NCBI GenBank assembly: GCA_031308135.1
Contig: JAHLJT010008446.1
Span: forward strand, 161,405,504 to 161,469,503
Source of the DNA: Acheta domesticus
Taxonomy: Eukaryota > Arthropoda > Insecta > Orthoptera > Gryllidae
Reading direction: 5' to 3'
DNA: 64,000 bases
The notes beneath the pieces were generated by a model. The model had not been told where the DNA came from and did not search any database. It saw only the letters and a list, made by a program, of their open reading frames with translations. Positions 1,061 through 64,000 of this stretch are shown one piece after another (the stretch's first letter is position 1; each line of letters starts with the position of its first letter). A program made the translations under genes and the position numbers.

Positions 1061-1229
1061 TCCCAGAAAGAAAGAAAAAGGGAAAGCATGATAGAAAAAC
1101 TGCTATTAACACATTAAACATTCACTTCAATGACATCATTTTTACTTTTTAAGGCAATATTAAAAAATGTTATTTTATTGACTTGAATGGCTATTAAAAT
1201 TCTTTCCCCTTTCAACGTTCAACAAAACC

Positions 1230-2780: not shown

Positions 2781-2945
2781 GGCCGGCCCCGTGGCCGGGA
2801 TCGCCAAGACAGTAGTGTTGTGGCGATCTCGGAACCTAGGGTTCGAGTCCCGCCTCGGGTATGGGTGTATTCGTGTGTGTCAATTTGTATGTGGGCCTTC
2901 CTTTTACCCCTCACTATTATCATTCATCTTCCATATTCTCAGGGC
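2781..2945 (+). mobile_element. tRNA-derived SINE
   Basis: A tRNA-like head carries an A-box-like TGGCCGGGATCGC (about 2792-2804) and a B-box GGTTCGAGTCC (2840-2850), followed by CCGCCTCGGGT and a tail running into short-repeat sequence. A second member is at 32045-32198 on the minus strand, with the same order of GGCCGAGATCGC, a B-box variant and CGCCTCGGGC, and a related tail. The long variable region resembles a Leu/Ser-type tRNA ancestor. It is not a functional tRNA: the acceptor pairing and normal tRNA length are lacking. Two dispersed copies support a SINE family. Confidence 0.65.
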
Positions 2946-3337
2946 CAACAACAATGGGAAGTAAAAATCGGATCCAGCGATTGATGATCCCTCCTGATGA
3001 ATTGCATGCCCAACGTGGTCCGAAATGTCCTGTTCAAAAAAATGTCGATGGGAGAAGAGATTCGGATACAACATTGTTCCATAGAAATCAACAAATTGAA
3101 AAATTTGTCGCTTACAACGCTGGAAAGCCGACGCTTTAATTGTTGAAAAATGTTTTCACGGAATGATTTTCCGAAGTAATAGGAACCTATTAGGTTGATA
3201 TAAATGAATAAAATTGTGTTATTGTTTGCTTTTCATTTTGAGAATTGAATAAATCCCAATTTTATCATAATTGAGCAAGGCCCTGAGCCTTTCTGGTTCT
3301 TCATATATAAAAATTTATTATTCAAGTGGCGAATTAC
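2946..3337. other. No recognisable feature
   Basis: This is AT-rich sequence with a 92-codon open frame (2861-3139) that starts inside the SINE and shows no known domain. I see nothing else here. Confidence 0.4.
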
Positions 3338-3339
3338 CG

Positions 3340-3340
<1 letters not shown>

Positions 3341-3391
<51 letters not shown>

Positions 3392-3407
3392 TATATATAT
3401 ATATATT
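3341..3407. repeat. Compound microsatellite (CT)n(AT)n
   Basis: There is a run of about 24 CT units interrupted once, followed by about 9 AT units. Open frames across it encode only Leu/Ser or Arg/Glu runs and are artefacts. Confidence 0.95.
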
Positions 3408-5369
3408 TTGTGACGATTGGTACAGGTACCAGACGTCCCGGCGGTCGCAAAGACATTTGAAATGCGTGGGCTAGACGCAGGCGACAAGCGGCGGTGGCGC
3501 GAGCGCGCCCTGGTATCGCCTGGCCGCGACATTGCGCGGGTCAGCCGAGCCGGAAAATGGGGGGGTGACGCCGGTTCTCTCCCCTTCACGGAAGGGGGAA
3601 GTTCGCATAAATACAGCGAACGGAAGGAAAAAGCTTCTTCTTGACCAGACCACGGGTGCGAACAGTTTGACTAGACCACGGAAGTGAATAGTTTTCGTTA
3701 GTAAAGGAGGTGAGGTCGCCATTTTCTGCGGCGAGTATGCGTAGATGTACGGCACAGAAAATTTCAGTATTGTGAGAACGCCTAGTAACATTTTGAACAG
3801 TGGAGTAATGCAGAAATAGTGGAAACGGTAGTAAATCTAACAAGAAGTAATGGGCGACGTAATCATATTTGCGGCGGTTTGGTGGGCTGTATTAGAACAC
3901 CGGAATTAGTCGACCAGATTCGAGAGAGGGCAAGAAACCGCACTAGGAGACAGAAAAAAACATAACTTCCCTGAAGTGCGTGAACTATGAATATACGTGC
4001 ATGATCCGGTGAGAACGAAGACGAACGAGGAACGTACGAGAGAAGGACGTGGTGAATTGCTGTAGCGGAACGAACGGGACAAGGGTGTTGACGAACGAGG
4101 AAGGCACGAGAGAAGGGGATGGTCATTAGAACTGCAATCTAACGACACAGGACGACAGGCCACGAGACTTCGGCGACCAGCGTGCGGCGGAGGCGACGCT
4201 GCGCCCAGCAGAGCGCTCCACGGGCACTTCTAGCGACCCCAGACGCCAACGAGGTGGTAAGACCACGCGCTGTCGAGGTAACAAAATCCATTTTCCAGCA
4301 AAATTCGAAGTGTTGGGCAGTCGTGCATAGGACTGTAGGAAATTGTGTAGAAAAACAAGAACGGAACTGTGCGCATAACTGTGTCGGAGCGCGTGAATCG
4401 TTCAGGCAAAGTAAAGCAATGAAAAGATTGAAAGTGGGATAGAGTTCAAAAAAATGATGTACATTTTAGTTTGTGAAGCCTTGTAACTTCCATAACACGT
4501 GCTTAAACTTTTGACGGTGGATTATCATCCCCAATTACTAATGCGTAAAGATAGTAATGTAAAGGAAAGTTTTTTTTGTGTAACTCGACGAGTGCAGAAG
4601 CAATTTCTTGTAAACTTTAGTTACTTAAGTTAGTAACTTAAGTTACATAAATGTGTAATATTTTTTTGTTCGTAGATTAATAGATAAAGTACATCTTGAA
4701 AGAGGCTAATTACATGAGTAACAAATGTTTAATGTTTGAAAATTTATTGTGAATCAAAAGGTAATAACCGTGCACGGAATAAGTCAGCAAAGTAATGTTT
4801 ATTTTTATTGGCAGATGGAAGAAAGATTGATTAATTTATATGTCTTTTTTTGCCAAGTGTTGATTTAGATTTTTTTAAAACATCGTCTCTGTATTCTTAG
4901 CCAAGAATATACGACCAGTGAATTGAATTGTATTCGGGTTTACTTTCTCACCCATAAAGATCCTGCTCCCTGAGATATCAAAGCTCGCAAGAGCATTCGG
5001 TCTACGCCTCCAATCAACCGCTAATTATTATTATAATTAAAGTAGGGTAAGGCGTTAGAATAAATATATTATTTGCGCGGTTATATTGCTAAAGATTGTG
5101 TTAGGCAATTTAGTAGCGTAGTTGTAAACGAAGCAGTTCAAGAGAAAAGAAATTTAAAAAGATTATTTGGAATTAGCACGTAAATGAAGCAGAACGTGAT
5201 CCAGCAGCAGTATGGTGTGACATCGCCGATGGCAGGAGATGGATTAACGGCAATCGCCCAACAAACATGTAGAGGACCCAATGGGAAGTGATAAACTAAT
5301 AAATATGTAGTTAATGTGTATTATCAAGTGATAATGATAGTATTAAGTTAATATTAAGTTATAAGAATA
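3408..5369. other. GC-rich to AT-rich transcription-unit-like block, possibly LTR-element related
   Basis: About 3410-4440 is GC-rich and begins TGTGACGATTGG right after the microsatellite. It holds a TATA-like GCATAAATACAGCG (about 3606-3619) and paired near-repeats CCAGACCACGG / CTAGACCACGG. About 4440-5180 is AT-rich with no long frame. A short open frame starts at 5183 (MKQNVIQQQYGV..., 35 codons) and stops at GGGAAGTGA. The TG start, promoter-like box and long untranslated stretch recall the 5' LTR and leader of a Gypsy-type element, but I see no second LTR copy, no primer-binding site I can defend and no gag/pol. The identity is open. Confidence 0.25.
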
Positions 5370-6195: not shown

Positions 6196-6615
6196 GAGAT
6201 GCCGAATGAGTACTTATGTATTAGTCAAAATGTAATTCTTTCAGCTCTATCATTAGGAAGCCGGTAATTGTCAACATGCGAAAAACATGTCTTTTGGGCG
6301 ACAAAGAGGCAGCGGAGAAGGGCTTACTCCAAATCCTGTATCCGACGAACGACATCAGAAAAATAACTACTGCGAGAAAGTCTATGCCATTCTATAGTAC
6401 CACTAGCTTATTTATTTACTTACCGTTTCTTATTACACACGTGGAGAAAATTTAAAGAAATAATTTGAAGCGTTTTATGAGAAAAATATTTTTATACATT
6501 TGAAGGGAATATTACCCAAAAACGACTCGTTTTTTCAGAAAATTCTACTTAACCTTTCTTAAAGAGCTAATTTTGTACAAGAGACTTTGTTTGAGGTAAA
6601 AATCGTAATCTACAA

Positions 6616-8966
6616 TTTTGTAGTTAAATAAGTAACATTGTTTATATTAAGAAGGGTAACATATATGGGGAATATTCCAGTTAGTTTCAAATTATTTTAA
6701 ATGGCTCGCCCAATGCAGGTCTGAGTATATTCAAGTAAATATAATGGGATATGAAGACGTAATTATATGAAGAAATAATGTAACTCATTTCCGTTAAATA
6801 AATGTATGAAGTTGACGGATATGACTTCCATTATTTCTTCATCCATCACAACCAAATGCGCGGAAAATTTGTTTTTTTTTTTCTTTCGTAGCTCCGCGTG
6901 TTGTCAAAGACGTGCAAAAATGTTTAATTAGATTTACTACTCCCATACATCAATTAATTTTCTATCAAAATATCTTCAAATCTTAACCTGAATTATCTAT
7001 CTTGCTTGCCAAAAGAATCCAAGCTCTTCATTATGAACAATATCGAGGAGATTGCACAGTTTAGTAAATTATTAATAATATTCGTTTTAAGGAAAATAGC
7101 CATCTTAATGACGTCGCGTTTTTAATATGACATATGTTTGTGACCATAAGTATTATTGGTAATAAATGGGCATGATTCATTGCATCGTCATTGCGAAGGA
7201 AATAGCCCCAAAAGGAGCAAAGCAGGCTCAAGATGTAGATGGAGATTTTCATTTGCGATATGTTTGCCAAGGGGTGTGTTGGCGAGCAGAGGCTGAGCCG
7301 CCAGCGAAATGGCCACGCTGCTCCAATCCCTCCGCTTCCAGGCGACGCGCGATGACAAATGCGCTCCCCTCGGCTGTGAGATCGAACAGAGACCTGCGCC
7401 GTAAGAGGCTGTCACTCCGTCTGCAGCCTCAGGCAACAATCAGTGGCGGAGGCCCAGAGGACCGCACCGCCGCAGCTGCCGCCGCCCGGTGGGACAAACG
7501 ATGACAGATGCCACCACTTTACGTGAATCAGTCTCCTGATCGATCCCAAAAGAGGTCCGGAGCAGTGCCACTGCACAGTCTACGCGCCACGGAACATGCT
7601 TGCCGCTTCCACTCGATAGCCTTTAAACGATTCAAGAAAGGATTGAAACTATTCCTCCTCCGTCTCGTCGCCTTCTTTTCGAGCGGGGAAAACCTGGCAC
7701 ATAAATCGTTTTCCCATATTCTCGCGAATTCTGGGCACGGACGAAGGGAAATCGCTTTAGGAGTCGAAGCGCAACCATTTCAATAAACGTTGGAGAAGAC
7801 ATGCTTTTTAGTTTTGCTTTATTTAACCAAATAAACCAACACTCAATTCCGTCGACCGGAGGAGGTGACTTAGGATATCCTGATCCTAGCGTGTCAGCTA
7901 GGTCGAATTAAGTCACTGCCTGGTGGAGAATTCTAGCAGTCGGCTGCTATGATCGTAATTTTCCGTGGTTTCTCCGATCAACGCCACGCGAATGCGAGAG
8001 TAGTACCCTAACAAATGGGCCACGGGCCGCGGGTGATATTTCCTTGCTCCTCCTTGTCCTATCCTCACCTCTTACTTACACACAGTTACACTAACATGTA
8101 CTACCGAACATCCCGGGAGACCGGCAGGGAGCTTAGAGCTTGTCACGGCTTAGGCGGTGCCCCGCTGGTGGGAGATATCTGATTGGGGAAAACCCCGCTA
8201 GCCGACGGGAGGTCGGTGCTGTATATCGCTATCCAGCGGGGGGAGACCACCGCCATCTCCTGTGGGAAAATCATGCACTACACTTACCGGACTAATGACC
8301 TTAGCAGTTGACGCGCACGGAATCACTAACAATAAATCAATCATCAACAATTCCGTCGGACCTGCACTTCAGCGTATACTTACCGTCGCCCAAAGAAAAA
8401 AATCGTTTGAAATTCTATCTTCGCAAGCACGCCGACAAACTTGTACAACCCACGATCCATGGAAGGGGGCGTTGACCAATCGCTAGCAGTTCGACCCTTC
8501 GCATTTGTGATTGGTGCAAAATTCAAGGGGCGGCAAAGACGCTGCCCCGGGGACGTCCCAAAGACACCCCGCCTTTAAATGTTTCAAACGTTACTACCAC
8601 TAAGTTTCGTTAAAAATTGTTTTCATTCGATTTCTACAAATTCACAAGAAGTTTAATTGCTTCGGTCTTCCAGAGTCGTGTCTGTGGTATTTTGATACCT
8701 TGCACAACGCGTGGTATTGGATTCTCACAGGTCTTCACGGAGCATGTTCACCTTATCAGCTCGTGCTCTGTTCGCCGAAAAGAGCCCGTCGCTCGCCTCC
8801 CTGGACTAACGGTGCTTGGAGCGAAGTCTACCTCACTCTTTCGGTACTGAGCACTTCCGCAATGCGCACGCATTGTAAACGGGATAGCGCTACCAAAACC
8901 CAAATTTTATGACTCGTTTTCTTCATTTTCTTTATTCAAATAGATGGTCACACATACCTCTATTTT
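6616..8966. other. Unassigned block with two GC-rich patches
   Basis: 6616-7160 is AT-rich with nothing recognised. 7240-7760 is GC-rich with open frames on both strands (for example 7166-7504 plus, 7188-7439 minus); none shows a known domain. 7850-8560 is GC-rich and contains AAGTCACTGCCTGG, a CCCGGGAGACCGGCAGG stretch and CCGCTGGTGGGAG / CCAGCGGGGGGAG near-repeats. It looks like untranslated retroelement sequence, but I cannot name the family. 8560-8966 has no clear feature. Confidence 0.3.
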
Positions 8967-10320: not shown

Positions 10321-13300
10321 ACAAATATTCATTGTTGCTGTGAAAAACAGATCATTTTTTTTCTCAAAAACAAATCTCTTCGGAATATAATCAAGCTCTT
10401 TTCAATACAATTTTTCACACATATTCACTGAAGTGAGATTAATTTTTGAAGGTCGCTACTTCCCGCACAATTTAGACAACGTATTCACACTTGTGCAGAT
10501 ACAAAACTAAATTTTGTATTGAAGATCTGCTAACTCAAAAAAGATAGTGTCGAAAGGTGAAAGTATAAAGTAATTTTATTGTCATAGTCCATTGTCGATT
10601 GTGCGACATTTTTTATAAAAATATTTTCAACGAAGCCACAGAACAAATCGGGGGCCTTTTAGGCCCCTTAAGTGGAAAGTGGGACTACCTAGAGAAAAAT
10701 CCAGATTTCTAAAAACCGATTAGTTTCGGTCTACTCTCCTTGTAGTATGAGCAACAAAAATGATTGTTTTAAGATGTCAAGAAATATTATTAGCCACAAG
10801 CAAAACACAACAGAATTACAACGATGAGAAGATGTCAAGGGGTCTCCGAAGCCCCTTAAGTGCATCGACGGGTTAAGACTATTCTAAGCATATTTTGTCT
10901 AATAAACTACGTGGATATTCCGAATGGTTGAACCGCAATAAGTATTCAAAAGTTGGCTTGAAAAATTGATTTATAGGCAAAACTTTGCATTATAGAAGCA
11001 TAGGAACACTTCAGAAACATCAGAAACTTCAGAAACAGTCAATTGTTTATTTACACAAGAAATGAATATATTTGCTCAGACAGAAAAATTAAGCGAGAAA
11101 TAAAAAAGCAGTCAAATTTTGTAAATTGAGTGCTTTTTTTATTTCTCGCTAATTTTTTCTTTCTGAAAAATGTATTCATATATTTTGTAAATAATAAACA
11201 ACTTATATGTTTCTGGAGTGTTTCTATGCTTCTGTAATGCAAATTTTTGCCTAGAAATCAATTTTTCAAACTAACTTTCGAGCGCTTATAGCGGTTTAAC
11301 CTTTCGGAATATTCACGTAGTTTATTAGACAAAATATGCTTAGAATTCTATTAAGAGTTTATTTTCGAAGTTTCAACGTTTCCTCCCGGACACCTGTATG
11401 TAGTATGCGGAAAGTTATGTAATTCTGCTCGAAAAAACGGCGGATTTTCGGGAGAAAAACTCTTATTACAGGGCCCTGGTAAACTAAAAAGTAGATAAAT
11501 CCAGTGGCTAAATTTAGAAAAATATCCTATCACACGTGGTGCAAGGCAAAATCCACGTTTTATAGCTCCTTGACACCGAGAAATCGATTGACGGCAAACG
11601 TCCCTGACCGTCTGTCTGTGAACAACGTTTAGCGACTAAACCGTTCAACTGATTTTCTCGAAAATTGATATTCCCCGATCGATCTGACTGATCTCATAAA
11701 CTTTCAATTTGAAACCACTATTTAACTTTTGGGAGGTACTCTACATCAAGCCCTTGGGACATTTTCAAAATTTTCAAAAAAATGGCTCCAACAATTTGGA
11801 CTAATTTTTGTTTTTGGATAGTCTGAAGGCCATTTAAGAAATGGCGCATGTCTCGTGTTGGTTAAAAACTCTGATTTTACAAAAATTGAAAAGTGCTTTA
11901 TATTTTAGCGTCTTCCTACAACAACAATTATGAAGATTCATTGTTTTCTAATGAAATGTGTCATAAAAAATGATTTTAAAATAAGGCCATGTTCAATTTT
12001 TCAAAAACAAGAGTATTTTATGCGAAATTTTGTGTCTAACATAGGCAATTTTTTATTTCCTTATGACCATTTTTAGTTAAAAATCGCCCAACGATTTTTG
12101 ATTAAATTGGAACCTTAGATAGCATAAATAAAGCTTAAGAGAGAGGTGCAAGTTTCATGTTCGTTTGAACTCCCTGACTTTGCAAAAAGTTTAAAACATT
12201 TTAAAAAAATTCGGGCGTCTTTCTACAACTAGTGTGAAGATACATTTGTTTTTCTTAATGAAATATGCTAATCAAAAACAGATCTTCACATAAGGTCACG
12301 TTGAATTTTTTGAAAATATGAATAGTTTTTCTATAATTTCCTGACAAACATAATAGCTCGCTCGGAATTCACTGCGCTTCGTTTCGGCGTCTTCTTACAA
12401 CTACAATTGTGAAAATACATTTTGTTTCTCAATGAAATGTATTGATCAAAACTACATATTCAAGTAAGGCCATGTTTATTGTTTTTAAATACGTGTAGTT
12501 TTTTCAATAATTTCGTGAAAAACATAATAGCCCGCTGCAAATTTACTGTGCTTCACACAGCTGGATGCGTCGTAAATTAGAATTTGCAATTTTGTGTATT
12601 ATTTCTTTGTTCGTTTTCTTAAATTGGATCTTTTGTCATACGTTTACAATTTAATTATTTAGAAATTATTTATTTTGAAATATTTGAAAAAAAAATACTA
12701 GCTCTCATGGATATCAGCAATGCAGGGAATACAACAATAAAATTCCGTTTCGCGCTCCGCGAAAGTGTGAATTACGGGTCATTATTGTGACTTGATATAG
12801 CTATTTGAAAATAAGTTATAATTGTCAAATTTATGTTGATATTTGCATGAAAATATTTAGTTTTCGTACCAAATGTTGTACCATTTGTAATGAGTAGAGT
12901 ATTTTTGTATAATTTTTGAATACTCTTCTCTAATCATGGCATGCATGCATTTCAATATTGTTCGGGATATCAGATTTCTTTTTACAATACAAGTTTACAA
13001 AACGTTTGTATTAATATTTTTATACAGTTGCAGAATTCACATAGTTTCTGACAACACTGCGATGAAAACAGTGGGTTGTTCGCTTCTTTGTTGAATTGGA
13101 CGTTTTCAAATATAGTTAAGCTGTTAGTGGCGCAGAAAGTGCAATATTTCAATACTACGTAACTGTTTCAAATAGCACGGGAAAGTATGTGCTGTTGAGC
13201 ACCACCAGCTTCCAAATTGAAGAAACCCCTGTCCATCTGACTCGAGTAGAAACCTTTGAGATTTTTGAAAATCTTTCTTCAAAATTTGGGGGTACTTTAC

Positions 13301-22923: not shown

Positions 22924-24240
22924 AAAAAGGGAACACAAATGAAATTCAAAATTACCGGCCAATTTCTCTGTTGTCACTTTTCTCAAAAATATTATAGAGT
23001 CTTTTCTACTCACGAATGGAAACTTTTCTCAGGAAAAACAAAGCGTTTTCAGACTCACAACACGGTTTTAGAAAATCAAAATCTATGGAAACTGCCATTT
23101 TATCTTTTCTCAAAGATGTTACTGCCTCAATAGACCAAAATGAAGTACCCATTGGAATATTCTTAGATCTTTCGAAAGCTTTTGACGTTATTGACCATAA
23201 CATCTTGCTCTCAAAATTTCCTTCGAATGGAATTCGTGGTATTGCCCTAGATTGGATAACTTCATTTCTTAAACATCGCACTCAAAGAGAAGAAATACCA
23301 TACTGGCACGAAAGGACATTACATACTTATGTCTCCAATTCTTTGCCAATTGAGCTTTGGGTCCCGCAAGGTTCGATCTTAGGGCCTATCCTCTTTCTGT
23401 TATATGTAAACGATATGCCCTCGTCTATTAAAAATGGAAGAACGGTTCTGTTTGCCAATGACACGAATGTTTTTTACAAAAAGAAGCAGTAAATAGTAGG
23501 ATTTCAGAAGTTTCAAATTGGTTTAATAATAACAAATTAATTGTTAACGAAAGAAAAACTGTTTCAATGCATTTTTGCATTTGAAATCGGCAATCGCGTG
23601 TTCCATTGAAAATGAACAATATGCAATTAGCTGATGTTGAGGTAACAAAATTTTTAGGTCTCTCAATTCAATCAAACCTCTAATGGAATGTACATATAAC
23701 AGAATTAAACATTAAATTAAGTTCATTATGTTACGCATTCAGAATACTTAGAAATTCTGTCAGTCTTCATGCAGCTCGTTGCGTTTATTTTGCAAATGTA
23801 CATTTCCGCCTGAGATATAGTATAATATTCGAGGGAAGCTCATCCTGTAGTATTCAGACCTTCAGATTGCAAAAGAAAATTATTCGAATAATGAAAAAAT
23901 GCCTTCCACCTGATCACTGCAAGCCTCTTTCATTGAGCTTGGAATCTTACCATTGCCTTGTCTATTTATTTACGGAGGGAGCTACTTAACGGAGGGAACA
24001 TATTTCATGCAATATTGATATTTATAATTACAACACACGCCGTAGAAATCACGTGCATCAAGTGTCAGTATCAACAGCTCATTACAAGAAATCAACATAC
24101 AATAGATGTACGTTACTTTACAACGCATTGCCAGATGATATTAAACAATTAAAGTCATTACACAAATTTAAGTGAATAGTAAAATCTTTTCTGTTGCAAA
24201 ACTGTTTCTACACAATTAGAGACTATACTGATTGTCAAAA
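22924..24240 (+). pseudogene. LINE ORF2, reverse transcriptase and C-terminal part (Jockey/CR1-like)
   Basis: This continues the LINE begun at 20390. Visible in order: NYRPISLLS (about 22950), a frame shift, then 23016-23492 with ETAILSFLKD, GIFLDLSKAFDVIDHNILLS (first catalytic Asp), ELWVPQGSILGPILFLLYVND and LFANDTNVF, where the usual YADD is ANDT, so a catalytic Asp of the pair is altered. After a shift, the thumb and C-terminal region continues (SNWFNNNKLIVNERKT, KFLGLSIQSNL, CLPPDHCKPLSLSLESYHC) to about 24240. Stops and shifts make it inactive. 3' sequence after 24240 is AT-rich; the exact element end is not resolved. Confidence 0.85.
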
Positions 24241-32490: not shown

Positions 32491-34230
32491 ACTTTCTCGC
32501 GCTTAAGAAGCAATTTCTTCAGAAGAGAAAGTTAAGTAACGCTGCGCGAAAAAACACGGAATGTTTGGCAGAAAAACTCTTATTACAGCGCACTGGTAGC
32601 AAAAAAGTTGATAAATCCAGTTGCTAAATTTAGAAAAAAAATCCTCCTCCACGTGGTGTAGTCAGAATCCATATTTTATGGCCCCCTAAAACTTGATTTT
32701 TGGAAAAACGTCTGTTCGTTTGTCTGTGAACAACGTTAGCGACTAAACCGTTCCGCTGATTTTCTCCAAAACTGATATTACCCTGTCGATCTGGCTGATG
32801 TCGAGGCCTCAGGAATTTGAAACCGATATTTTAATTTTAGGGGGTATTCAAGCCCCTGGGTCATTTTCAACATTAAAAAAATGGCACCAACAATTTTGAT
32901 TAAATTTTGTTGTTGGATAGTCTGAAGGACGTTGAAGAGAATGGCGCAGGTCTCATGTTGGTTGAAAACACTGATTTTTTCGAAAATTGAAAAAATTCTA
33001 AATTTTTTCGGTGTCTGTCTACAACTACAATTATGAAGATACAATTTTTTTCTTAATGAAAAGTGTTTATAAAAACAGATTTTCTGATAAGATCATGTTT
33101 AATTTTTCAAAGCCAGAGTATTTTTTACGAAATTTTGTGTCAAACATAGGCAATTTTTATTTTCTTTATACCATTTTTCCTAAAAACGGAACATTTGTGT
33201 TTTGGGACCTTAGCATAAAGGTAACTTAAGAGAATGGTACATGTCTCATGTTCGTTGAAATGCCAAATTTTGCAAACAACGTTGATGAAAATGAAAAACT
33301 TCAGAAACAAAAACCTCAAACTTCACAAACAAAAATGAAAAATCTTCAGCCTCTTCATACAACTACAATTGTGAAGATTCAATTTGTTATCATAATGAAA
33401 TGTGTCATCAAAAACAGATCTTCAAATAGGATCATATTGATTTTTTTGAAAATAGTAGTTTTTCTATAAGTTCGTGACAAACATAATAGCCCGCTCGGAA
33501 TTGACTACGCTTAGTTTTCAGCGTTTTCTTACAACTACAATTTTAAAATACATTTTTTCTCAATGAAATGTATTTATCACAAATATATCTTAAATATGGT
33601 CAAGATTGATTTTTTTGAAATAACGAGTAGTTTTTCTATAATTTCGAGACAAACATAATAGCCCGCTGCCAAATATACTGCGCTTCAGACAGTTGGATGC
33701 TTCGTAAGTGAGAATTTGTAAGTAATTTCTTTGTGTGTTTCTTACATTCGACCTTTTGTTATGCATTTTACATTAATCTTTTAGAAGTTATTTCAAACCT
33801 ATTTGAAATAATAAGTGAAGTCGGCTGTCCCATGTTAGTAGCATCTAAAGATCCTCAATCCTAAATGACGCCTCTGAGCTAAATTCAAAATCACCTGTTT
33901 CGTCGCCGTCTTTCTCCGCTAGTGGGTGAAAGGAGTGTAACGAAATTTGCGTGGTCAGGCGGAAGAGCAGGCCTCATGACCTGAGTCTCGCCGAGTAAAA
34001 TAAGGCAATTCAAATAAAAATTGCTAACTTTCAGGGATATCAGTAATGCAGGGGATGCAACAACGGAATTCCTCTTCGCGCTCGCGAACTTCTGTCAATT
34101 ACGTGTCATTGTTGGGACTCGATATAGCTGTATGAAAAGGAGTTATAATTGTTGAATTTATGTTTATATTTGCTTGAAAGTATTCAATTTTCGCATCAAA
34201 CACTCAACTATTTGTAATGAGTAGTGGTTA
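32491..34230 (+). mobile_element. Long Helentron/HINE-like copy
   Basis: It starts ACTTTCTCGCGCTTAAGAAG with the hairpin partner CTTCAGAAGAGAAAGTTA, preceded by a T run. The body is collinear with 11397-12900 (GTCTGTCTGTGAACAACG..., AACATAATAGCCCGCT(C/G) repeated twice, GATATCAGTAATGCAGGGGATG). A GC-rich ~230-bp insertion at about 33800-34020 is absent from the other copy. The ACTAGT end is not found; the copy fades after TTTGTAATGAGTAG at about 34225. Open frames are short. Confidence 0.7.
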
Positions 34231-35895: not shown

Positions 35896-37640
35896 TTATT
35901 GTTTATTTACTTATAATACTTGTATTACAAGTTTCAAACAATGTCATTGTTTTTAGATAAAATCAATTAGTACCAACTGTAATAATAAGTAATTAAATCA
36001 TAATAATAAACTTAAGTTACTCAAACTTAAGTTTAAGTTGCTTGTTCTAAAGAAATAAATAACTTATCATTTGGTAAGAAATATATAATTATTATAGCAT
36101 TGCTCTCTTTGTCTATGATAATTCCTTTAGTTTATAAGGGCAAGTTTCAATTAAGTATTTTTTTAGTGCTTTTTTTAATTTAGTTTTCCTTAACTCTTTA
36201 ATATGGTTAAATAGTTTATTGAAGAGTAATGCAGCATTCCTATAAGGATCCTTCTTTGAGGAGGATTTAGCAGAGTACATCCTGTGATAGTTTATCTTTC
36301 CTCTAGTGTTATATTGATATACACATTTATTTTGAGTAACGTGACAGTTATTGTTTTTATGAGCAGAATTATCCTAAATGCATAAATTGCAACAACAGTC
36401 ATTATTTTGTATTTTTTTGTAAAAATGTTTACAAGATTGGTTAAGATGCAGCTGGAAAAATGCATCTCAGAGCTCTTTTCTGTATTATCATAACCCTGTC
36501 CATGTTCCCTACACTTGTTGCTCCCCATATTTCTATGCCATATTGAACGTGAGGGTATATAATGCCGTAATATGCAGTAATTAGCATTTTCACTGTCATA
36601 CATTTTGAGAGATTTCTCAGTAAGTAAATGTTAGAATTATTTTTTTTGCATATAGCATTAATGTGTTCATTATATGTTAGATTTTGGTCAATGTGGATTC
36701 CAAGAAATTCATGGTTTCGCACTTGGTGAACATTTTTGATTGTTCATATCAATATTTATTTTGTAATTTAGGTTTTGTTGTGATGATTAAATTGCATCAT
36801 ATATGTTTTGTTTATGTTTAGGTTTAGATAACTGGATATTTGTTGCATTGTATCAGTCATAATTTCTTTTAATGCTGTTACGTTTTATTACTACAGATTA
36901 ACGTTGTGTCATGTGCGTAAGAGATCAGTTTATTTTTTGATGTTGGAATGTCGTTCATGTATATTATAAATAGTAGTGGTCTCAATACTGATCCTTGTGA
37001 GATTCCTGCTGTAATTAGAGCAAAATTAGATTTAACTTTATTTACGAATCTTTCTGTTTCCCAATACATTTGAACACTTTGTATACGTTTTGTTAAGTAT
37101 GACTTCAGTAATTTATGAATATTACCTCTTATTCCATAGTGATCTAGTTTTTTCCAGAAATAGTTTATGTGAGACACTGTCAAACGCCTTCGATAAGTCC
37201 ATAAATATACCTGTAGTATAAAAGTTATTTTCTAGATTTTCTTCTTATTTATTATATCATGAATAATATCAGCAACTGCAGTAATAGTGGATTTATCCTT
37301 CCTAAATCCATGTTGTTCATTACTTAACAGGTTGTTCTTTTCCAAAAAAATGTAGATTCTGACTGCTATTACTTTCTCTAATAATTTTGCAAAACATGAC
37401 GTAAGAGTTATTGGTCTATAGTTCACGACTTCAGTAGAATTACCTTTTTTAAATATAGGTCGTACAATACTAATTTTCAATGAATCCGGAAAAACACATT
37501 CATCTAGTGAGTTGTTAATTAGGTGAACTAAAATATGTATTAAAGAATTCTTGCATTTTTTCATCTTTCTGGTGTAATCTCATCCCATCCACTTGTTTTA
37601 CTATTATTTAGATTTTCAATCAGTTTTTTTTAAATTTCTG
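35896..37640 (-). pseudogene. LINE reverse transcriptase (CR1/Jockey-like), minus strand
   Basis: Successive minus frames give: 37564-37232 SLDECVFPDSLKISIVRPIF, VVNYRPITLTSCFAKLLEK and HGFRKDKSTITAV; 37183-36878 HYGIRGNIHKLLKSYL, AGISQGSVLRPLLFIIYMND and ISYAHDTTLI (usual YADDT changed to YAHDT, removing a catalytic Asp); 36722-36441 FLGIHIDQNLTYNEHI and HVQYGIEIWG, the C-terminal block. The order and spacing are those of one ORF2 with stops and shifts. The 3' end is AT-rich and finishes near AATAAACAATAAACAATGA at about 35896. ORF1 and endonuclease are not seen, so the copy is 5'-truncated. Confidence 0.85.
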
Positions 37641-41875: not shown

Positions 41876-43197
41876 TCATGCAGATGTCAGAGCTAAAATC
41901 ATTGATGACAGACAGCATTTGGGAGAGAATCGCTTCATTCTTAGCAAAATTTTAAGATCATCCATGTAATATAAATGTGATAAAGGCATTTCATCACCAT
42001 GGAGATTGTAATCAAAGTCAGTGTGCGACAGCTGTCTCGATAGAGGAATCAAACTAATGCAAAACAGCAGAGGGGATAGTGAATCTCCTTGAAAAATTCC
42101 CCTGTTAATCTGAATACTTCTGGTTTCTACTACTCCCTTTCCTCTGTGGATTAGTAACCTGGTGCTCCACGACTTCATACTAGCCTTGCAAAACTCAACA
42201 AGTCTAGGATGAAATCGATAGATCTCCAGGGTCTTCAAAATCCAATCGTGTGGTACACTGTCAAAGGCCTTTTGGTAGTCAATCCAAGTCATGCTTAAAT
42301 TACGTTTTCGTTTCTTTACATCATTCAAAATTATTTTATTCAGAAGCAAGATTTCCTTACAGCCATAGGAACCTTTACGACATTCTTTCTGTTCAACTGG
42401 CAACAGATGGTTCTTCTCTAGGTGCCTATACATTTTGTCAGTAATGGCTGCAGTTATAAGTTTGTACATTACTGGCAAGCAAGTAATTGGCCTGTAATTC
42501 TTCGCCAAAGAGATGTCTCCTCCTTTGGGTAGCAAATACGTAATGCCGCGAGTGAGCCATTCGGGGAGTTCGTTAGGGTTTTCTAAAATTTTATTAAGAG
42601 CCTTTGCAAGATGAGAATGTAGTGCTGTTAATTTCTTAATACAATAAATCTGGATCTTATCAACCCCAGGGGATTTCCAGTTTCCCATATTCTTTATTGT
42701 TTGGCATAGGTCCTCTTTCGAGAATCCTTGAACATGTTCCACTGTTTCCACGAGTCCATTGCCAGCATCAACTTCAGATTGGAGTCAGGATGCGTCTTTG
42801 TTGTAAAATCTGGTTTCCTCCCAGATTACTGACCAAAATGTTTCGACGTCATCTTTTGAAGGAGGGGCAGCATTTCCATTCGGTGTTTCAGTCAGACTGC
42901 GATAGAATCTCTTCGCGTCGGTTTCAAACAACCGGTTCTGTACACGGAAATCGATTCTACGTTTGTACCGTCTTATTCGTTGAGCCCATGCTTGGATTTT
43001 TTCTTTTAGTTTTTCAGCTACAATTAGCCTTGTTGTGTCACTGTCAATTAGGTATTTTTGTTCAACATGGAGTATTTTTTGTTGAACTTTGTACGTGTGG
43101 TTCGACTTAGAAGATGCCTAGGCTAGGAGTGATATTTCACGCCGTGTGTCGGCTATCCGTTTCATAATTCTTTTCATCCACGGAGGTACGGAGCTTT
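41876..43197 (-). pseudogene. Dong/R4-like ORF, reverse transcriptase domain
   Basis: Frames from about 43170 to 42752 give KLKEKIQAWAQRIRRYKRRI, QNRLFETDAKRFYRSL and APPSKDDVETFWSVIWEE, the stretch before the RT in R2/R4-type elements, with breaks. From 42751 to 41876 a 291-codon frame holds MGNWKSPGVDKIQIY, NYRPITCLPVMYKLIT, MTWIDYQKAFDSVPHDWILK (first catalytic Asp), GIFQGDSLSPLLFCISLIPL and LYYMDDLKIL (catalytic Asp pair intact). It would copy element RNA at a nicked chromosomal target. It stops at an in-frame TGA at about 41875, after which the same frame continues. Confidence 0.9.
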
Positions 43198-45470: not shown

Positions 45471-45638
45471 TATCAGAAATAATTTACTTTACCGATAACG
45501 TCTGAACAAATGGTCCGATTTTTGATATGTAAACGGTATTTGACTCCTTTTTATAATAGAATTTACGCTACGAAGACCTTTTTTTCAAAAAACTAGCAGA
45601 AACTGAATTTTAAATTTTTTTCTCTTACTTTACCCCTC

Positions 45639-46654
45639 TTGAAGAGAACACAAGAACAATTAGAACCCAAATTGGAAGAATATCAAGCAGGATTCAGACC
45701 AAACAGGTCGTGCCCAGAAGAAATTGACAACCTCAAAACGATAGTCAAAATTCGATCACTCAGGCAAAAACCCCTAGTATGCACATTAGTAGATTTTAGA
45801 AAGACATACGACTCATTAGACAGGCCCTCATTATTCCAAATTTTAGAAGAAAGGGGATTAGCTTTCAAAATACGAGAACTTGTAAAACAAACACTAATTG
45901 GCGAGAAATCCAAAGTAAAATTCATGAAAGAATTCTCAGAACCTTTCGAAATTCAAACGGGTGTACGACAAGGCGATGGGCTCTCTTCCCTTCTGTTCAA
46001 TATCGTTCTAGACAAGGTTATGGAAGAATGGGAAAGAGAACTCAAGAAGCAAGGATTTTGGAAGCCAATTTCACTTGGCTTTCCGAAAACCAATCTCGTC
46101 ATACTCGCATTCGCAGACGATCTGGCGATATTAGCTGAAGATGAGGAGACAGCCATTAAGCAGCTCGAGATACTTAAAGAATGTGCTGAGAAAGTAGGGC
46201 TATAAATTTCATTCGAGAAAACTGAATTCATATGTTCAAGGACAGAAATCGCAAGTCTCAAAACGAAGTACGGTAGAATCAAAAGGTCACCATACTTTCA
46301 AGTACCTCGGAGAGTTCACTGAACCTACAGGACTTCAAAAAATCTCACAGCAAAATCGCCTCCAAAAAGTAAAGAAAGAATTAGGACTAGTTCAAAACAT
46401 CTACAACAAAAAATTCATGTCAAGACAAATCAAAATTCGACACTACAACTAAAACCAACAGTCCGGTATGCTAGCGAAACATTGTCTCTTAACAGAAAAT
46501 ACGAACTTGAAGAGAAAAAAAAGAAGAGAAAAAGATAATTAGCAAAATCCTAGGAGCAAGATATACAGAATAAAATCAGTCAAAACAGTAGAAAAGTTTT
46601 AAAAAAAAATTGAGTCTCTTGCTTAGGGTCTTCCATCGTTGGGGAGAATTCGCC

Positions 46655-46695: not shown

Positions 46696-48314
46696 CAACA
46701 TTTCTTTTACATGGATGATCTTCAGATCATCCATCTTCAGATCATCCAGTGTTTGCTAAGAATGAAGCGATTCTCTCCCAAATGCTGTCTGTCGTGAATG
46801 ACTTTAGCAATGACATCTGCAAGAAGTTTGGTCTTCACAAGTGTGCAACAATCAATTTTCAAAGAGGCAAACTGACAACATTAGAGAGCATTGATATTGA
46901 TACGCACATACTGATTCAAGATCTTGAGCCAGGTAAAACTTATAAATATCTGGGCATTGAAGAATGTGAAACCATCTCAAACGACACAATGAAAGAGAGA
47001 ATTCGCAGACAGTATTACAGAAGAGTGAGACTGGTCCTGCAGTCCGCTCTGAATTCCAGGAATAAAATATCTGCAATAGGTAGTTTGGCGGTTCCTGTAG
47101 CCGAATACAGTTTTGGACTAGTGGACTGGACTGAGCAAGAAATTCGCAAAACAGGATCGAAAAAACAGAAAACGCTAACAATGCATCATGTCGCCCACCC
47201 TCGAGCTGATGTACATAGACTTTATATGTCACGTAAGGAAGGAGGAAGAGGCCTCAGACAAATTGAGGCCTCCTGGCACAACGCAATAGTCGGGTTGGGG
47301 AAGTATGTAGTCAGCCATCAAGATGGCCCTCTAATGATGCAGGTCATGAAATCTGACCGAAGAATGGGAAACAGAGGCATTGTTAGTGTAGCAAGAAGCA
47401 TTGCGAAGAAAATTAGGCAAGACACGCCGAATAACACAGACACTGAACTTCTGATGCTGCTAAACATGAAATGTGAGACACCAAAAATGTTAAAGAAATC
47501 GTAGAGAGACAAACCACTCCACGGACAATACCTAAAAAGAATGGACAAGGTGCAGATCAATAAAGATCAATCATTTATGTGGCTTAAAAGTGGAAGAATG
47601 AAGCCAGAATCGGAAGCAGTTCTTGTAGCTGCTCAAGATCAGGCGTTGAGATCATGACATTATGATAAAGCGGTTCTCAAAATTTCCCAAGATGATAAAT
47701 GCCGCATTTGCCAGGGGCAAGTAGAAACCATTGATCATATTGTCTCAGCTTGTCAAATCCTAGCAAAGACTGAATGAAAAGACATGACAGGGTGCGTAGC
47801 TACCTCCACTGGCAGATCTGTACCGCCCTCGAAGTTCCAAACACATGCCCCAAGTGGTACGAACACTCACCAAAACCGGTGACGTCTGTTGGATTATGTA
47901 CGATATTGTACGACCAACAAATTCAAACTGATCGCACGATAGCGGCAAATAAGCCGGATATAGTTATCCGGGATTTGGCGAAAAATTGTGTTTACTTGTC
48001 GATGTTGCTGTCAATGTTTCCTTGCGATCAAAACGTCGTTACGAAGGAGGCAGAGAAACGTCCTTAAATACAAGAGTTTGGAAATCGAGATCAGCCGAAT
48101 GTGGGGCGTAAAAGCACAGGTCGTACCGATAGTTATCGGAGCTCTGGGATTTGTTCCGCAAAATTTGAGTAAGAACTTGTCTAAACTCCCCGGTAATTCA
48201 AAAGACTGGGAAGTGCTACAAATTGCTTTATTTGGAACAGCCCACATTTTGCGCAAAGTATTGTAGAGGCACTGACAGTCACCGGATCTGCCCCTTAGGT
48301 AGCTGGTTGCAACC
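46693..48314 (+). pseudogene. Second Dong/R4-like copy, 5'-truncated
   Basis: The copy begins at the YMDD block of the reverse transcriptase (TTTTACATGGATGATCTTCAG, with a short local duplication CTTCAGATCATCC). The frame 46749-47504 gives NEAILSQMLSVVNDFSNDIC, EPGKTYKYLGIEECETISND, SALNSRNKISAIGSLAVPVA and VAHPRADVHRLYMSRKEGGR. A TAG at 47502 ends it; further pieces give the knuckle CRICQGQVETIDHIVSAC, KPDIVIRDLAKN, and after the shared shift VVPIVIGALGFVPQNLS (frame 47988-48266). It matches the copy at 40332-44503 throughout. It is interrupted after GCTGGTTGCAACC at 48314 and resumes at 51732. Confidence 0.9.
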
Positions 48315-48990
48315 AAAGAGTATTTCCTAGAGACGGCACTCAATGTTAAACGGAGAAGCCTTATTTGTCAGCATCGGGTTCGCCACATTGGTTTGTATTA
48401 CTTACTATTGGGCAAACGGACAGCCAATAGCGTAGAAGTAAGCGATAAATTTGAAATAAACCAGATACGCGGGAATTTTAAAATTTCACTCCCATATTCT
48501 GTCATTAATTTATCAAAAACTAGTCAATAATTTTTATTATTATCAGAAACTACACAAGGATTTTATGGGGAAAAAAGTCAAAATTAGGGCAGGGAAATCA
48601 AGTATTTATTGAGCGTATTAATATTACACTTTTTTAAAATTTCATTAGTGTTAACAATATTGTATTACACAAGGCAATAAACACAGTACACCAGCTGAAA
48701 TGCAACTTTACTTGCTTGTAGACATGCCAAATAAACTTGAATACTATGGAATACTGCATTATTACAGAGCATTACACATGAACAGTGTTGAAAAGAAACA
48801 AATGAAAACAATACCACACCTTTGCCCTGGTAAAACAAATAGTTATGATACAAATGCCATTTTATTTGGCGAGTAGGAAAGATAGCATCACAAGGCATGT
48901 CAGGTGCCCCAATCCTACAAGCAAAATAAAATCACTTTCACCATCAATTTTTAAACAGTATTACTGCCTTTGATTTTATTTTAATTCAAG

Positions 48991-49061
48991 TGTACAGATA
49001 ATGTAATTATGTACTATGTTACAGTTACTACTGCATAGTACATAATTACATTATCTGTACA
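48991..49061. repeat. Perfect 28-bp inverted repeat (stem-loop)
   Basis: TGTACAGATAATGTAATTAT with GTACTATG (48991-49018) is exactly complementary to 49034-49061, with a 15-base loop. A third partial copy (TAGTACATAATTACATTATC) follows at about 49078-49100 as a direct repeat. It lies downstream of the minus-strand gene, possibly in its 3' untranslated region. Confidence 0.85.
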
Positions 49062-50362
49062 TTATCATTACATTATTAGTACATAATTACATTATCTGTA
49101 CATTATCAGGTACTCCTGATTAAATCAAACAAAGTATTTTGTTTTCTATGTTGCTTTTATCAGAACATTTGAGCGTTGTCCCACTTCTAACACTAGTGAC
49201 AAAAATTGAACTTGTAGCATTCTATGCATACCTTGAAAGATCTGCTTTTACTAGTTGCAGTCTAAAAATTTTTTTTGCTAGTCAATAACTATTTGACAAA
49301 ATTAGTATATTTACCCATGTCCATCTCACACATGCACAGTTAGGGGCCTGGCTGTCCAAAGATGGGCTTAAATGAGAAACTACATTAACTTTTAAAACAT
49401 TATTTATGAAGAGTGGAATGTAACAGTCCCAACAAAGCTTGTACGCCATAATTTAAATCTGAAAATATATTATGAAAGTGCAAATATTTAATTGCAGTAA
49501 GAACCGAGCCTGGAACTTTCTGACAACTGGACATTTATTCTAACAACCGAGCTGTGAAATCCAACATTGCATTTATGACTCAAGATAATTCACAATTTAA
49601 TAGGGATCAGCATTCACATTAACAATATAATTGGCATGAAGATTAACAAAACACAATAATACACCAATTGTAGAATAAAAATTCAATCAAGACAGAGTTT
49701 GTCATGACAAACAATTATTGCCGGAACAGTAGAACATTGCATATGCAACTTATATCAATTCCAATAATAAAAACCAAGTAATAGGCACTAACAATAAAAA
49801 ATATTACAGAACACATATTAAGCCAAAAAGAAATCTTAAAATTTCATGAAAATAGGCTCTAAAACAGGGACTCAAAAATTTTGTATTCATAATTTCCAAA
49901 TAAATTGTCTTCACAGAGCAAGAGGGATTCCAAATTTGAGAAAATGACTTGTCTTTTACAGAATGAATTTCATCTTCAAATAAAATTAAATTTTATTAGA
50001 ACTTTCCAAATTAGATGTGGAAAATATGGTTTATGTAGCATCCAAATGACAGAATACCCATTGATCTTAAAACTCTCATTATTCGTATCACTACAAACTG
50101 TCTGTGTAAAAGAGGTATGAGCAGAAATTTTGTGCAGAATGAAGAAAGTCATTCACTGAACATTACAATTATTCTTTAAAATTAGCTCTCTGAGTACTGA
50201 CTCTCCAAAGAGAACCTAAAGTTACAAACAAAATGATCTCTCCTAGTCAATTGACATTATTGGAGCATATTTTTAACATTAAGAAGTAATAGACTACTAT
50301 TATTTTCACATTTATGAATATTTTCCATGGTTTTTAACTGCAAAATATTAAGCAATAACTTT

Positions 50363-51317
50363 TCACATATTCTTCATACCAGAGTGCCGGCACACCAATC
50401 TGATATCACTAATAAAGTGACGCGAATGCATTGAAGTCACAGATTCATCTTCCTGAATGACTTCAGCACCTGTAATCACCAACCACAAAAATATTTGTTT
50501 TTTTATTTACTCTAATTCACACTCAATTGGTACAAATAACTGTATATTCAACGGAAAAACTTACCATGAGAACTATCCACAACAACATTAGTTGACACCT
50601 TTCATGGGTGAAAAAGATCTGAAAATAGAGACAAATATGAATTTTCCCCACCTTTAAAACATGCAACAAAGTGATAATTGAGTTGCTTAAAGATTATAGC
50701 AAACACTTACCATGAACAAGGCTAGCATATGCATCTGCCGCACTTCATGTAGCAGCACACTGAATGGCAGAGCCACCTGTATTCATCAACAACGAATTAT
50801 TACCTTATTTTATACCAGTACATTTCACTTTCAATAGCATGCTTCTATTTCACGCACATAAAGAAACTTACCATTTTCAGTTTCAGTTGCTGCCTGAGTA
50901 CAAAGACCTGAAAATTAAAAAATACTGGTAAGAAAGACTTCCATCGAACTATTGTGTAATTAAAATTAATCCCACAAAAACAAATTGTATCCCCCTTTTG
51001 CAATCTCAAACACATCTGTCCTATTTGAAGTTCTATTGTCTGTTGACAATTGAACTTCAGATGAACTTCAAATTTATTTTTTTAAGTTTTTTTTAAAATT
51101 GCTTACCGATTACACCCATTGGTATTGTGGGTGTCACCTCTGTTGGTTCAAACAAGGGATCTGCAAGTGAACATGACCATTAAAAATATTTCAAAATTTA
51201 CAATGAAATTATTTGAATGCTCTTTCAAGGTAAATACATACCATGAATTATCACACTTATTGTTCGCCAATCTCTATTATTCAGGAATTTTCTTGACCAT
51301 ATTTTTGACGAACACAT
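50363..51317 (-). CDS. Undescribed multi-exon gene of small phase-1 exons
   Basis: I do not recognise the product. On the minus strand: exon 1 51317-51242 (starts ATG, MCSSKIWSRKFLNNRDW, in-frame TAA just upstream), exon 2 51160-51107 (LFEPTEVTPTIPMGV), exon 3 50907-50872 (LCTQAATETEN), exon 4 50776-50711, exon 5 50618-50565, exon 6 50469-50363 (AEVIQEDESVTSMHSRHFIS, ends CGGCACTCTGGTATGAAGAA then ATG TGA). Every junction has AG at the acceptor and GTATGT or GTAAG(T/C) at the donor, with pyrimidine-rich acceptors. Every internal exon is a multiple of three (54, 36, 66, 54) and all introns are phase 1, splitting a G|GN codon. Exons 4 and 5 each hold one in-frame TGA; omitting both leaves an open 90-residue frame. 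It may be a transposon-borne gene, a captured host fragment, or a decaying gene. Confidence 0.55.
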
Positions 51318-51319
51318 TT

Positions 51320-51719
51320 GTAGCACAACAGTCAATTAAAACACAATTACGAACACATTTGAAGCACAAAAGCAGCTGTAAATTAAAAATTTCTTGAATT
51401 CACTGATATATTCTTTGATAGCACCCGTAAATGGCCCCACAAACAGCACGAAACTCCACAACACAGTCTCACAGATACTCTTTGGGCACGAAGCTGCCAC
51501 GCCGGGCGAACGTTGAAGCAATCCAACGGTAATTCAACCGGCGCCGACCCGGAGAGCTTTGAAAATGAGTAGTTCTCCGATATACCGCTAGAGCGAGTTC
51601 GTGTAGTACAATTGTATATGGCGGTGCTCTGAGACAGAGGGAGAGGGGGAGAGAGCTCTGATTGGCTACTGTATTGGATTTGAATAAGGAATTTCTCCAG
51701 CCTATCTAGTGGCACACCA
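51320..51719 (-). other. Probable 5' leader and promoter region of the multi-exon gene
   Basis: GC-richer sequence upstream of the exon-1 ATG. A 61-codon upstream frame (51521-51336, MLQRSPGVAASCPK) ends just before the main ATG and could be a uORF or an alternative coding start. A duplicated CGAACACATTTG(T/A)AGCACAA lies at about 51308-51330 and 51351-51370. No TATA box is evident. Confidence 0.35.
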
Positions 51720-51731
51720 CTGGTTGCAACC

Positions 51732-55041: not shown

Positions 55042-55825
55042 CTAATATTTCGTGGGGTTCCCTTTCGCATCAATTACTGCCTGAAGTCTTCTAGGCATAG
55101 ATTCTACTAAATTAGCAGTAAAGGAAGGTGAAATTTTCTCCAATTCAACTTTCAAAACTGTCTTAAGTTCACTTACACTCCTGAAGTCTCTTTCTCTAAC
55201 ATTTTTATCAAGATAACTCCACAAATGTTCTATTGAATTTATATCCTGTGATTGTGTTGGCGTATGCAGTTGTGTGGGCGTATTGTACAGAAGCCAAAGC
55301 TTCGAATTTAGAGCCGTGTGTTTGGGGTCATTGTCCTGCTGGAAAATATAATTGCGTCCCAGTCCCAATTTATCAACAGTTAATTGCAGATTGTTTTCCA
55401 AAATGTTTATATAAACAAACTGTTCCATAACCCCTTCGATAATCTGCAAGTTCCCCACACTAGAAGAACTCATGAAGCCCCACACCATTACTGATCCTCC
55501 TCCGTGTTTAATGGTGGGCAGCAAGTTGCGCGGATTGAGTTCCTCGTTCTTCCTTCGCCAAACGCGTTGCTTTCCATCGCACCCAGAACTATTAAATTTA
55601 CTTTCGTCGGTGAATACCACCCTTTTCCAGAAATTCTGGTCTTGATACCGATGCAAAAGAGCGAAATTTAATCGTTTCTTTCTATTTGCCTCACTCACCC
55701 AAAACTTCTTACGCGCATGTGGACCGTAGTAACCTTCCCTCCTCAAGGTGCGACGTACCGTAGCCGCCGAAATAGACACTCCTCTTCTCCCAAGATCAGC
55801 AGCTATCTTTGGTGCACTTCTAGGA
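55042..55825 (-). pseudogene. Tc1 transposase, DD34E catalytic part
   Basis: The frame is open from the T run to its natural stop; the first ATG in it is at 55779. It encodes the end of the second HTH (TVRRTLRREGYYG), then the catalytic core: KRVVFTDESKF (first Asp), a GGGSVMVWGFMS glycine-rich block, YIFQQDNDPKHTA (second Asp) and DINSIEHLW (Glu, 34 residues after the second Asp). All three catalytic residues of the DD34E triad are present. The C terminus is PRRLQAVIDAKGNPTKY. Total length with the first part is about 340 residues, normal for Tc1. The enzyme cuts the element out and inserts it at TA. No other defect is visible. Confidence 0.9.
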
Positions 55826-56066
55826 TTTTTTTTTTAATTTCACGTACAATTAATTGTCGATCTTGATGAGATAGCACCAGAGGTCGTCCGCATCCCGACT
55901 TATTTAAATACGATATTCTCACACAGAATCTATCTATTATCGATTGAACAATCGACCTGGGTTTTCCAAGAGCATTTGCAATGTCTCTTAGAGATTTGCA
56001 CTGGTTGTGCATATTAATAACTACTCGTCGCTCCTCTGCAGTAGTCTCCTTTCCTTTGCGACCCAT
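55803..56066 (-). pseudogene. Tc1 transposase, N-terminal DNA-binding part
   Basis: The frame starts at ATG 56066 (MGRKGKETTAEERRVVINMH). It holds a first helix-turn-helix (SLRDIANALGKPRSIVQSII, about residues 25-44), a GRP-type basic link (SGCGRPLVLS) and the start of the second HTH (DRQLIVREIKK). This bipartite domain binds the element's terminal sites. The frame is lost in a run of ten T (55826-55835; A on the coding strand), and coding sequence carries on in another frame with the rest of the second HTH (SAPKIAADLGRRGVSISAAT). A one-base length change in the run explains the break, either a true mutation or a homopolymer sequencing error. Confidence 0.85.
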
Positions 56067-63069: not shown

Positions 63070-64000
63070 GAACATGGGAAACTGGAAATCTCCTGGGATT
63101 GATAAGATCCAGATTTATTGGATTAAGGAATTAACAGCAATACATTCTCATCTAACAAAGGCTGTTAACAAAATTTTAGAAAACCCAAAGAAACTCCCGG
63201 AATGGCTCACACGCTGCATCATGTGTCCTGCTATCCAAAGCGGGAGACAGCTCTTTGGCGAAGAACTATAGGCCAATCACTTGTCTGCCAGTACTGTACA
63301 AAGATATAACTGCAGCCACAGATGACAAAATGTACAGACATCTAGAAAAGAATCTAATACCAGCTGAACAAAAAGGATGTCGTAAAGATACTTATGGCTG
63401 TAAGGAAATCTTGCTACTGAATAAAGCCATATTGAATGATGTAAAGAAACGAAAACGTAATTTGAGCATGGTTTGGATTGACTACCAAAAGGCCTTTGAT
63501 AGTGTACCACACGATTGGATTTTGAAGACTCTGGAGGTCTATCGATTTCATCCCAGACTTATTGAATTTTGCAAGGCTAGTATGAAGTCGTGGAGAACCA
63601 GGTTACTGATTCACAGCGGAAAGCAAACAGTAGAAACGGGAAGTATTCAGATCAACAGGGGGATTTTTCAAGGAGATTCACTATCCCCTCTGCTTTTTTG
63701 CATTAGTTTTATTCCACTATCGAGACAGTTGTCGCAAGCTGACTTTGGTTTTAAGCTCCATGGTGATGAAAAGCCAGTATCACATTTGCTCTACATGGAT
63801 GATCTTAAAGTTTTTGCAAGGAATGAAGCAATTATCTCCCAAATGTTGTCTGTCGTGAATGACGTTAGCAATGACATCTGCATGGGATTTGTTGTTGACA
63901 AGTGCGCAAAAATAAATATAAAAAGAAGCAAACTGACAACGTCAGAGAAGTTCATACGTACACTGTGATTCAAGACATTGAGCCAGGTAAAACTTACAAA
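63070..64000 (+). pseudogene. Third Dong/R4-like copy, runs off the window
   Basis: It begins directly after the TTAA of the piggyBac-like end with AAGAACATGGGAAACTGG (KNMGNWKSPGIDKIQIYWIK), the same point as about 42696 of the first copy. After a shift at about 63240, the 237-codon frame 63255-63968 holds NYRPITCLPVLYKDIT, MVWIDYQKAFDSVPHDWILK, GIFQGDSLSPLLFCISFIPL and LLYMDDLKVFARNEAI, with all catalytic Asp residues. A stop near 63966 is followed by EPGKTYK in another frame. Its 5' part must have lain on the other side of the piggyBac-like insertion and is not in view. Confidence 0.9.

Follow-up and report, generated by a model that had tools for sequence, protein, structure and literature searches.

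The six small exons read on the minus strand at 50363-51719 of the 64-kb window (the whole stretch of DNA that was analysed) look like the real remains of a gene, now a genomic fossil, and the repeated element around them looks like a non-autonomous cut-and-paste transposon. The explanation that we hold with good, though not full, confidence is that decayed exons of a once-coding gene lie within such a DNA transposon, whose movement would depend in trans on the transposase of another element. In the past the exons would have undergone splicing and translation, whether within a larger gene belonging to the element, in which case its catalytic part would now be missing, or as captured exons. At present the copies would multiply solely at the DNA level, and the exons, carried along as passengers, may still undergo splicing but need not be translated. 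The initial annotation had proposed an undescribed gene in a mobile insertion; the multi-exon anatomy of small, symmetric phase-1 exons stood, but the locus is better described as the remnant of a decayed gene that is multiplied along with a transposon.

Structure of the exon chain

The exons and a possible poly(A) signal, as read from the sequence, are as follows, with acceptor scores from splice matrices drawn from general knowledge.

51242..51317, minus strand: exon 1, 76 nt, ATG first
51107..51160, minus strand: exon 2, 54 nt, similar to exon 5
50872..50907, minus strand: exon 3, 36 nt
50711..50776, minus strand: exon 4, 66 nt, one in-frame TGA, weak acceptor (3.2)
50565..50618, minus strand: exon 5, 54 nt, one in-frame TGA
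50380..50469, minus strand: exon 6 read to a donor-like GTATGA, 90 nt in the window copy, weak acceptor (4.3)
48605..48610, minus strand: AATAAA, candidate poly(A) signal, some 290 bp from the element's 3' end

Most of the anatomy in the initial annotation was recovered, including the ATG at 51317, exon ends at 51242, 51107, 50872, 50711 and 50565, and a stop at 50363. The donors belonged to the classes claimed (5' to 3' GTATGT, GTAAGC, GTAAGT, GTAAGT and GTAAGT), and all five acceptors ended in CAG. The internal exons measured 54, 36, 66 and 54 nt, all multiples of three, and every intron was phase 1, an arrangement of sizes and phases that permits skipping without loss of frame. Exons 4 and 5 each contained one in-frame TGA, and 90 residues were left when both were skipped. 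The exception was the split codon, which had been given as always G|GN: two of the five junctions give G|AT (Asp), because the first two bases of exons 2 and 5 are AT. In the conceptual product, exon 1 reads MCSSKIWSRKFLNNRDWRTISVIIH.

The last exon had been continued to the stop at 50363, but it contains a donor-like CTG|GTATGA at 50379, so that this stop may be intronic. The site was present in 22 of 25 copies and absent from L024, L025 and L029, in which exon 6 is interrupted by an insert. If it ends at this donor, exon 6 is symmetric and phase 1, with 90 nt in the window copy and 93 nt in L023, and it is possibly another exon of the same kind and not certainly the last. The internal exons would then number four or five, of 36-93 nt, with all of those in the window being multiples of three.

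A repeated element with common ends

The following features define the element in the window.

48314..51722, minus strand: whole element (3,409 bp), running 5' CAGTGGTGTGCCACTAGATAGG ... CTCTAGGAAATACTCTTTG 3' when read in the direction of the gene, with ends common to other copies
51723..51730, minus strand: target-site duplication GTTGCAAC, 5' side
48306..48313, minus strand: target-site duplication GTTGCAAC, 3' side; single in the related unfilled site of L023
49026..49114, no strand assigned: palindromic, internally repeated stretch of about 90 bp (TAGTACATAATTACATTATCTGTACATTATC) in the window copy

A mobile 3.4-kb insertion had been claimed from the window, and this was borne out by the common ends, the 8-bp duplications and an unfilled paralogous site. 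The ends of the element were the same between copies wherever both were available, and exact 8-bp duplications, with 10 distinct sequences, flanked 14 of the 16 pairs of ends that a pattern search located. The two pairs without an exact duplication were those of L011, which runs into N, and L021, whose flanks are unlike; the flanks of L033 matched at seven of eight bases. No end pair was found by pattern in L014, L015, L017, L024 or L027. The unfilled site, in L023, is a continuous stretch related to the sequence into which the element in the window is inserted.

A genome search found many copies in the 2.33-Gb genome, with copy numbers that are lower bounds (candidates scored were 40 of 338 for the exon stretch, 40 of 112 for the 5' end and 40 of 282 for the 3' end). 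Our sample comprised eight short loci, twenty copies with flanks and 13 further regions, and included local duplicates sharing a target site (L010, L012 and L019; L013 and L022). All or most of the palindromic stretch at 49026-49114 was lacking in the copies that aligned across this region. An Rfam search of the 64-kb window gave nothing at gathering score.

Several other repeats were observed in the window. Pieces of reverse transcriptase (PF00078) from several LINE-like elements were found at 41879-42784 (minus), 45597-46202 (plus), 63180-63965 (plus), 22998-23489 (plus) and 37235-37579 (minus), and a Tc1/mariner-like transposase frame of 263 codons (HTH_Tnp_Tc3_2, DDE_3) at 55042-55833 (minus). 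Two short tandem arrays, at 12233-12554 and 33345-33667, had units of 174 and 172 bp that were alike, and perhaps represent one satellite family.

Transposase and superfamily

We recognised no transposase of the element's own among the 25 copies scanned for open frames, where recognition was by eye on translated frames and the remaining copies were judged by frame length only. The longest open frame had 255 codons (L015) and the next 207 (L029). In L015, frames of 184, 150 and 255 codons (6438-8859) lay beyond the end of its match to the element, and neither the 184-codon nor the 255-codon frame matched a Pfam family above cut-off. A Pfam search with ten open fragments from the window element gave a single match, below cut-off, and no autonomous partner was found among the copies examined.

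Four candidates for an autonomous element were rejected. The PF21787 match of L033 sits in a nested P-type insert with its own inverted ends (none of 500 shuffles as good); this degraded element (947-3961), itself split by a further insert, replaces the exon-4 part of its host element. L037 (C392:148943400-148951100) is interrupted close to where exon 5 ends, by a 6-kb antisense insert of hAT type, to which the transposase belongs (PF05699, PF14291). L035 and L036, two pieces of one copy, contained a nested reverse-transcriptase insert as judged by eye, and L034 contained two inserts in which no transposase was recognised by eye. A further locus, L038, matched only the exon part of the element.

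Terminal inverted repeats are normal for both P and hAT elements, and YARNG is a consensus for element ends. Both ends of the element fit YARNG. This hAT and P feature of inverted termini was not found, as the best terminal match had a local score of 7 that was reached by 267 of 1000 shuffles; a subterminal match was weak (6-15 of 300 shuffles as good in three copies, 70 of 300 in L023). The hAT target motif nTnnnnAn had little power here, its score being reached by 10.7% of within-site shuffles and 45% of random 8-mer sets from the window. The terminal inverted repeats of hAT elements are short, at 10-25 bp. PMC3942097 gives 8-bp target-site duplications as a hAT feature, and these were observed at the 14 end pairs above. 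For the P element, PMC10299278 gives the target consensus GGCCAGAC, also ATRGTCCGGACWAT. Our 10 sites resemble this P-like consensus, with as good a match in 0.4% (GTCCGGAC) and 0.5% (GGCCAGAC) of within-site shuffles (n=5000). These target sites point to a P-type transposase as the likeliest mover of the element in trans, and P is favoured over hAT as its superfamily, with membership putative.

Possible sources of the exons

The initial annotation had not recognised the product, and neither did we: the conceptual product had no match in Pfam, the profile search applied to the exon peptides, and no relative up to E 10 in a protein collection that includes animal proteins, where a longer, padded query also found nothing. 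A genome search with the product gave at least 223 matches (150 of 425 candidates scored), many of them on known copies of the element. No processed, spliced copy was found among the matches listed (40 of 211 candidates scored). Matches spanning exon 5 into exon 6 were set aside, on a check of L028 and L026, as due to a chance resemblance shown by the last part of intron 5.

Three diverged loci contained exon 1 only, as a block at the edge of another repeat.

L039 389-460: exon-1 block
L040 375-446 (reverse complement): exon-1 block
L041 348-424 (reverse complement): exon-1 block

These blocks (72-77 nt, 86-90% identical) covered almost exactly exon 1. The sequence preceding them was common to all three loci and absent from the element, and L040 and L041 also carried an inverted partial copy. 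The adjoining repeat has a stretch like CTGATGATGAG...CGAAACGTT in L039-L041; a resemblance to a hammerhead core before the block had no Rfam match up to E 1, and we do not claim one. On this likeness exon 1 is common to the element and another repeat, and at least exon 1 would thus have a repeat-linked history.

Two sources of the exons fall within the preferred explanation. One, which we put forward tentatively, is capture from a host gene, as in a non-autonomous transposon of the Pack type; that host gene may survive. The lack of a recognised transposase in the copies scanned is consistent with capture, as are the exon-like blocks carried together with introns and the occurrence of exon 1 outside the element. 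However, many of the listed genome matches (40 of 211 and 150 of 425 scored) fall on known copies, the three exon-1-only places examined hold another repeat, and the protein collection contained no relative. The other source, also possible without being probable, is the element's own transposase gene, of which the exons would be the 5' part, with the window copy and its kin as internal-deletion derivatives. Such derivatives are usual for DNA transposons according to PMC3942097, the exons begin about 400 bp inside one end and all lie on one strand, a further donor follows exon 6, and AATAAA lies near the other end. Against this stand the 25 copies scanned with no own transposase recognised, the nested position of the P and hAT pieces in L033 and L037, and a conceptual product with no Pfam match.

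A more elaborate version, which we regard as unlikely, is that the exons form the regulatory 5' half of a transposon gene, still used by an autonomous element, with the window copy as a dead derivative; the modular, skippable phase-1 exons, the likeness of exons 2 and 5 as a duplication, and the exon-1 block common to another repeat would belong to this design. An intact parent, if found, would reveal a transposon gene built of modular symmetric exons. More generally, the preferred explanation would make the element an example of how transposition multiplies small exons bearing splice sites into many copies across a genome, even after the protein has decayed, and host genes could draw on such repeated exons for exon capture.

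The exon chain compared with chance

Quite unlikely, in our judgement, is a chance origin of the reading frames within a non-coding repeat, for which the lack of protein relatives and the neutral pattern of present-day change (see below) can be cited. Against it, the splice chain outscored all 300 shuffles, and few stops occurred in exactly the spliced frame. We scored chains of five introns with symmetric exons using the general matrices introduced above. The five introns as initially annotated scored 75.3, and the top chain in the 1,161-nt stretch scored 76.2, with introns 1-4 and the donor of intron 5 unchanged and the last acceptor at a different position, 50338. Dinucleotide shuffles (n=300) had a mean chain score of 1.3 and a maximum of 62.4. 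Among 218 window segments taken on both strands, the top score (77.5) was found at 50081-51240, minus strand, overlapping the exon chain.

The spliced frame of the window copy contained two stops and the other sense frames 7 and 14; in L023 the count was one in the spliced frame and 7 and 13 in the remaining sense frames. One stop or fewer was reached in 22 of 5000 shuffles, and both this and the chain test overstate somewhat, because they follow a reading already chosen by eye. Exons 2 and 5 were alike to a degree seen in none of 500 shuffles, while each of the other 14 exon pairs was equalled in at least 19 of 500. This likeness suggests that exons 2 and 5 derive from an old exon duplication.

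Probable decay among the copies

The initial annotation had proposed comparing synonymous with non-synonymous change among copies. We counted changes against the majority in 21 copies (the window copy and 20 others), with the expectation taken from the spectrum of the introns and the downstream stretch. The ratio of replacement to silent changes was 80:25, against 115.1:35.3 expected, and five changes created stops against 6.1 expected. Replacement and silent changes were both below expectation by the same factor, and the ratio is therefore neutral. Exonic changes totalled 110 against about 156 predicted from the intron rate, an excess in the reference that arises partly because L024 and L025 align badly in the downstream stretch. 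Changes common to two or more copies (45 replacement, 13 silent) were also near neutral, with some of these copies being local duplicates. The copies compared thus lacked any sign of protein-level constraint. At splice dinucleotides 8 of 500 cells differed from the majority, compared with 298 of 11341 in intron interiors, and the splice sites were not clearly better kept.

At the exon-4 stop position, 23 of 25 copies had a stop (22 TGA, one TAA), and L023 and L031 had TCA. These two copies grouped together in the tree, which was midpoint-rooted only, and on that rooting the simplest reading is that the exon-4 stop arose inside the family. At the exon-5 position, TGA was present in 22 of 25 copies, with TGG in L011, L014 and L017. 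Private frameshifts or a lost donor were observed in several copies. Several exon indels common to copies were 3 nt long, and these could be a trace of earlier constraint; one 1-nt indel in exon 6 was common to four copies.

The in-frame stops had been attributed to either regulated poison exons or a decaying gene, and the neutral ratio, the exon-4 codon of L023 and L031 and the private frameshifts or lost donors favour decay, with nothing in the copies found to support the other half of the claim. A live gene in which skipping of exons 4 and 5 gives a 90-residue protein and their inclusion leads to message decay is therefore very improbable on these three counts, even though the symmetric sizes and phases allow in-frame skipping, both stops are common (exon 4 in 23 and exon 5 in 22 of the 25 copies) and the acceptor of exon 4 is weak, as expected of a skippable exon.

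Comparison with known systems

Schistosome micro-exon genes are expressed and have many symmetric micro-exons and an N-terminal signal peptide. The exons described here are similar in that several small symmetric exons occur within one gene, but they look decayed, are repeated with a transposon, and show no secretory start by eye. Aphid bicycle genes, as presented in PMC9168663, are alike in having small internal exons all of one phase. That paper describes a CYC motif, which some relatives lack, and an average of about 17 exons in characterised genes, with a minimum of 5. In contrast, the chain here has four or five internal exons, and by eye its conceptual product has no CYC motif and no evident N-terminal signal sequence.

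Among transposons, non-autonomous hAT or P derivatives, for example the short BuT2 copies of Drosophila (PMC3942097), resemble the element in their 8-bp target duplications, common ends and an interior without transposase. The element differs from such derivatives in having no clear terminal inverted repeat and in containing the remains of a multi-exon gene. The Drosophila P element has inverted ends of 31 bp, whereas we found none in the element described here and no P transposase of its own; the two are alike in the 8-bp target duplication, and the target sites found here resemble the P consensus GGCCAGAC and the core of ATRGTCCGGACWAT (PMC10299278).
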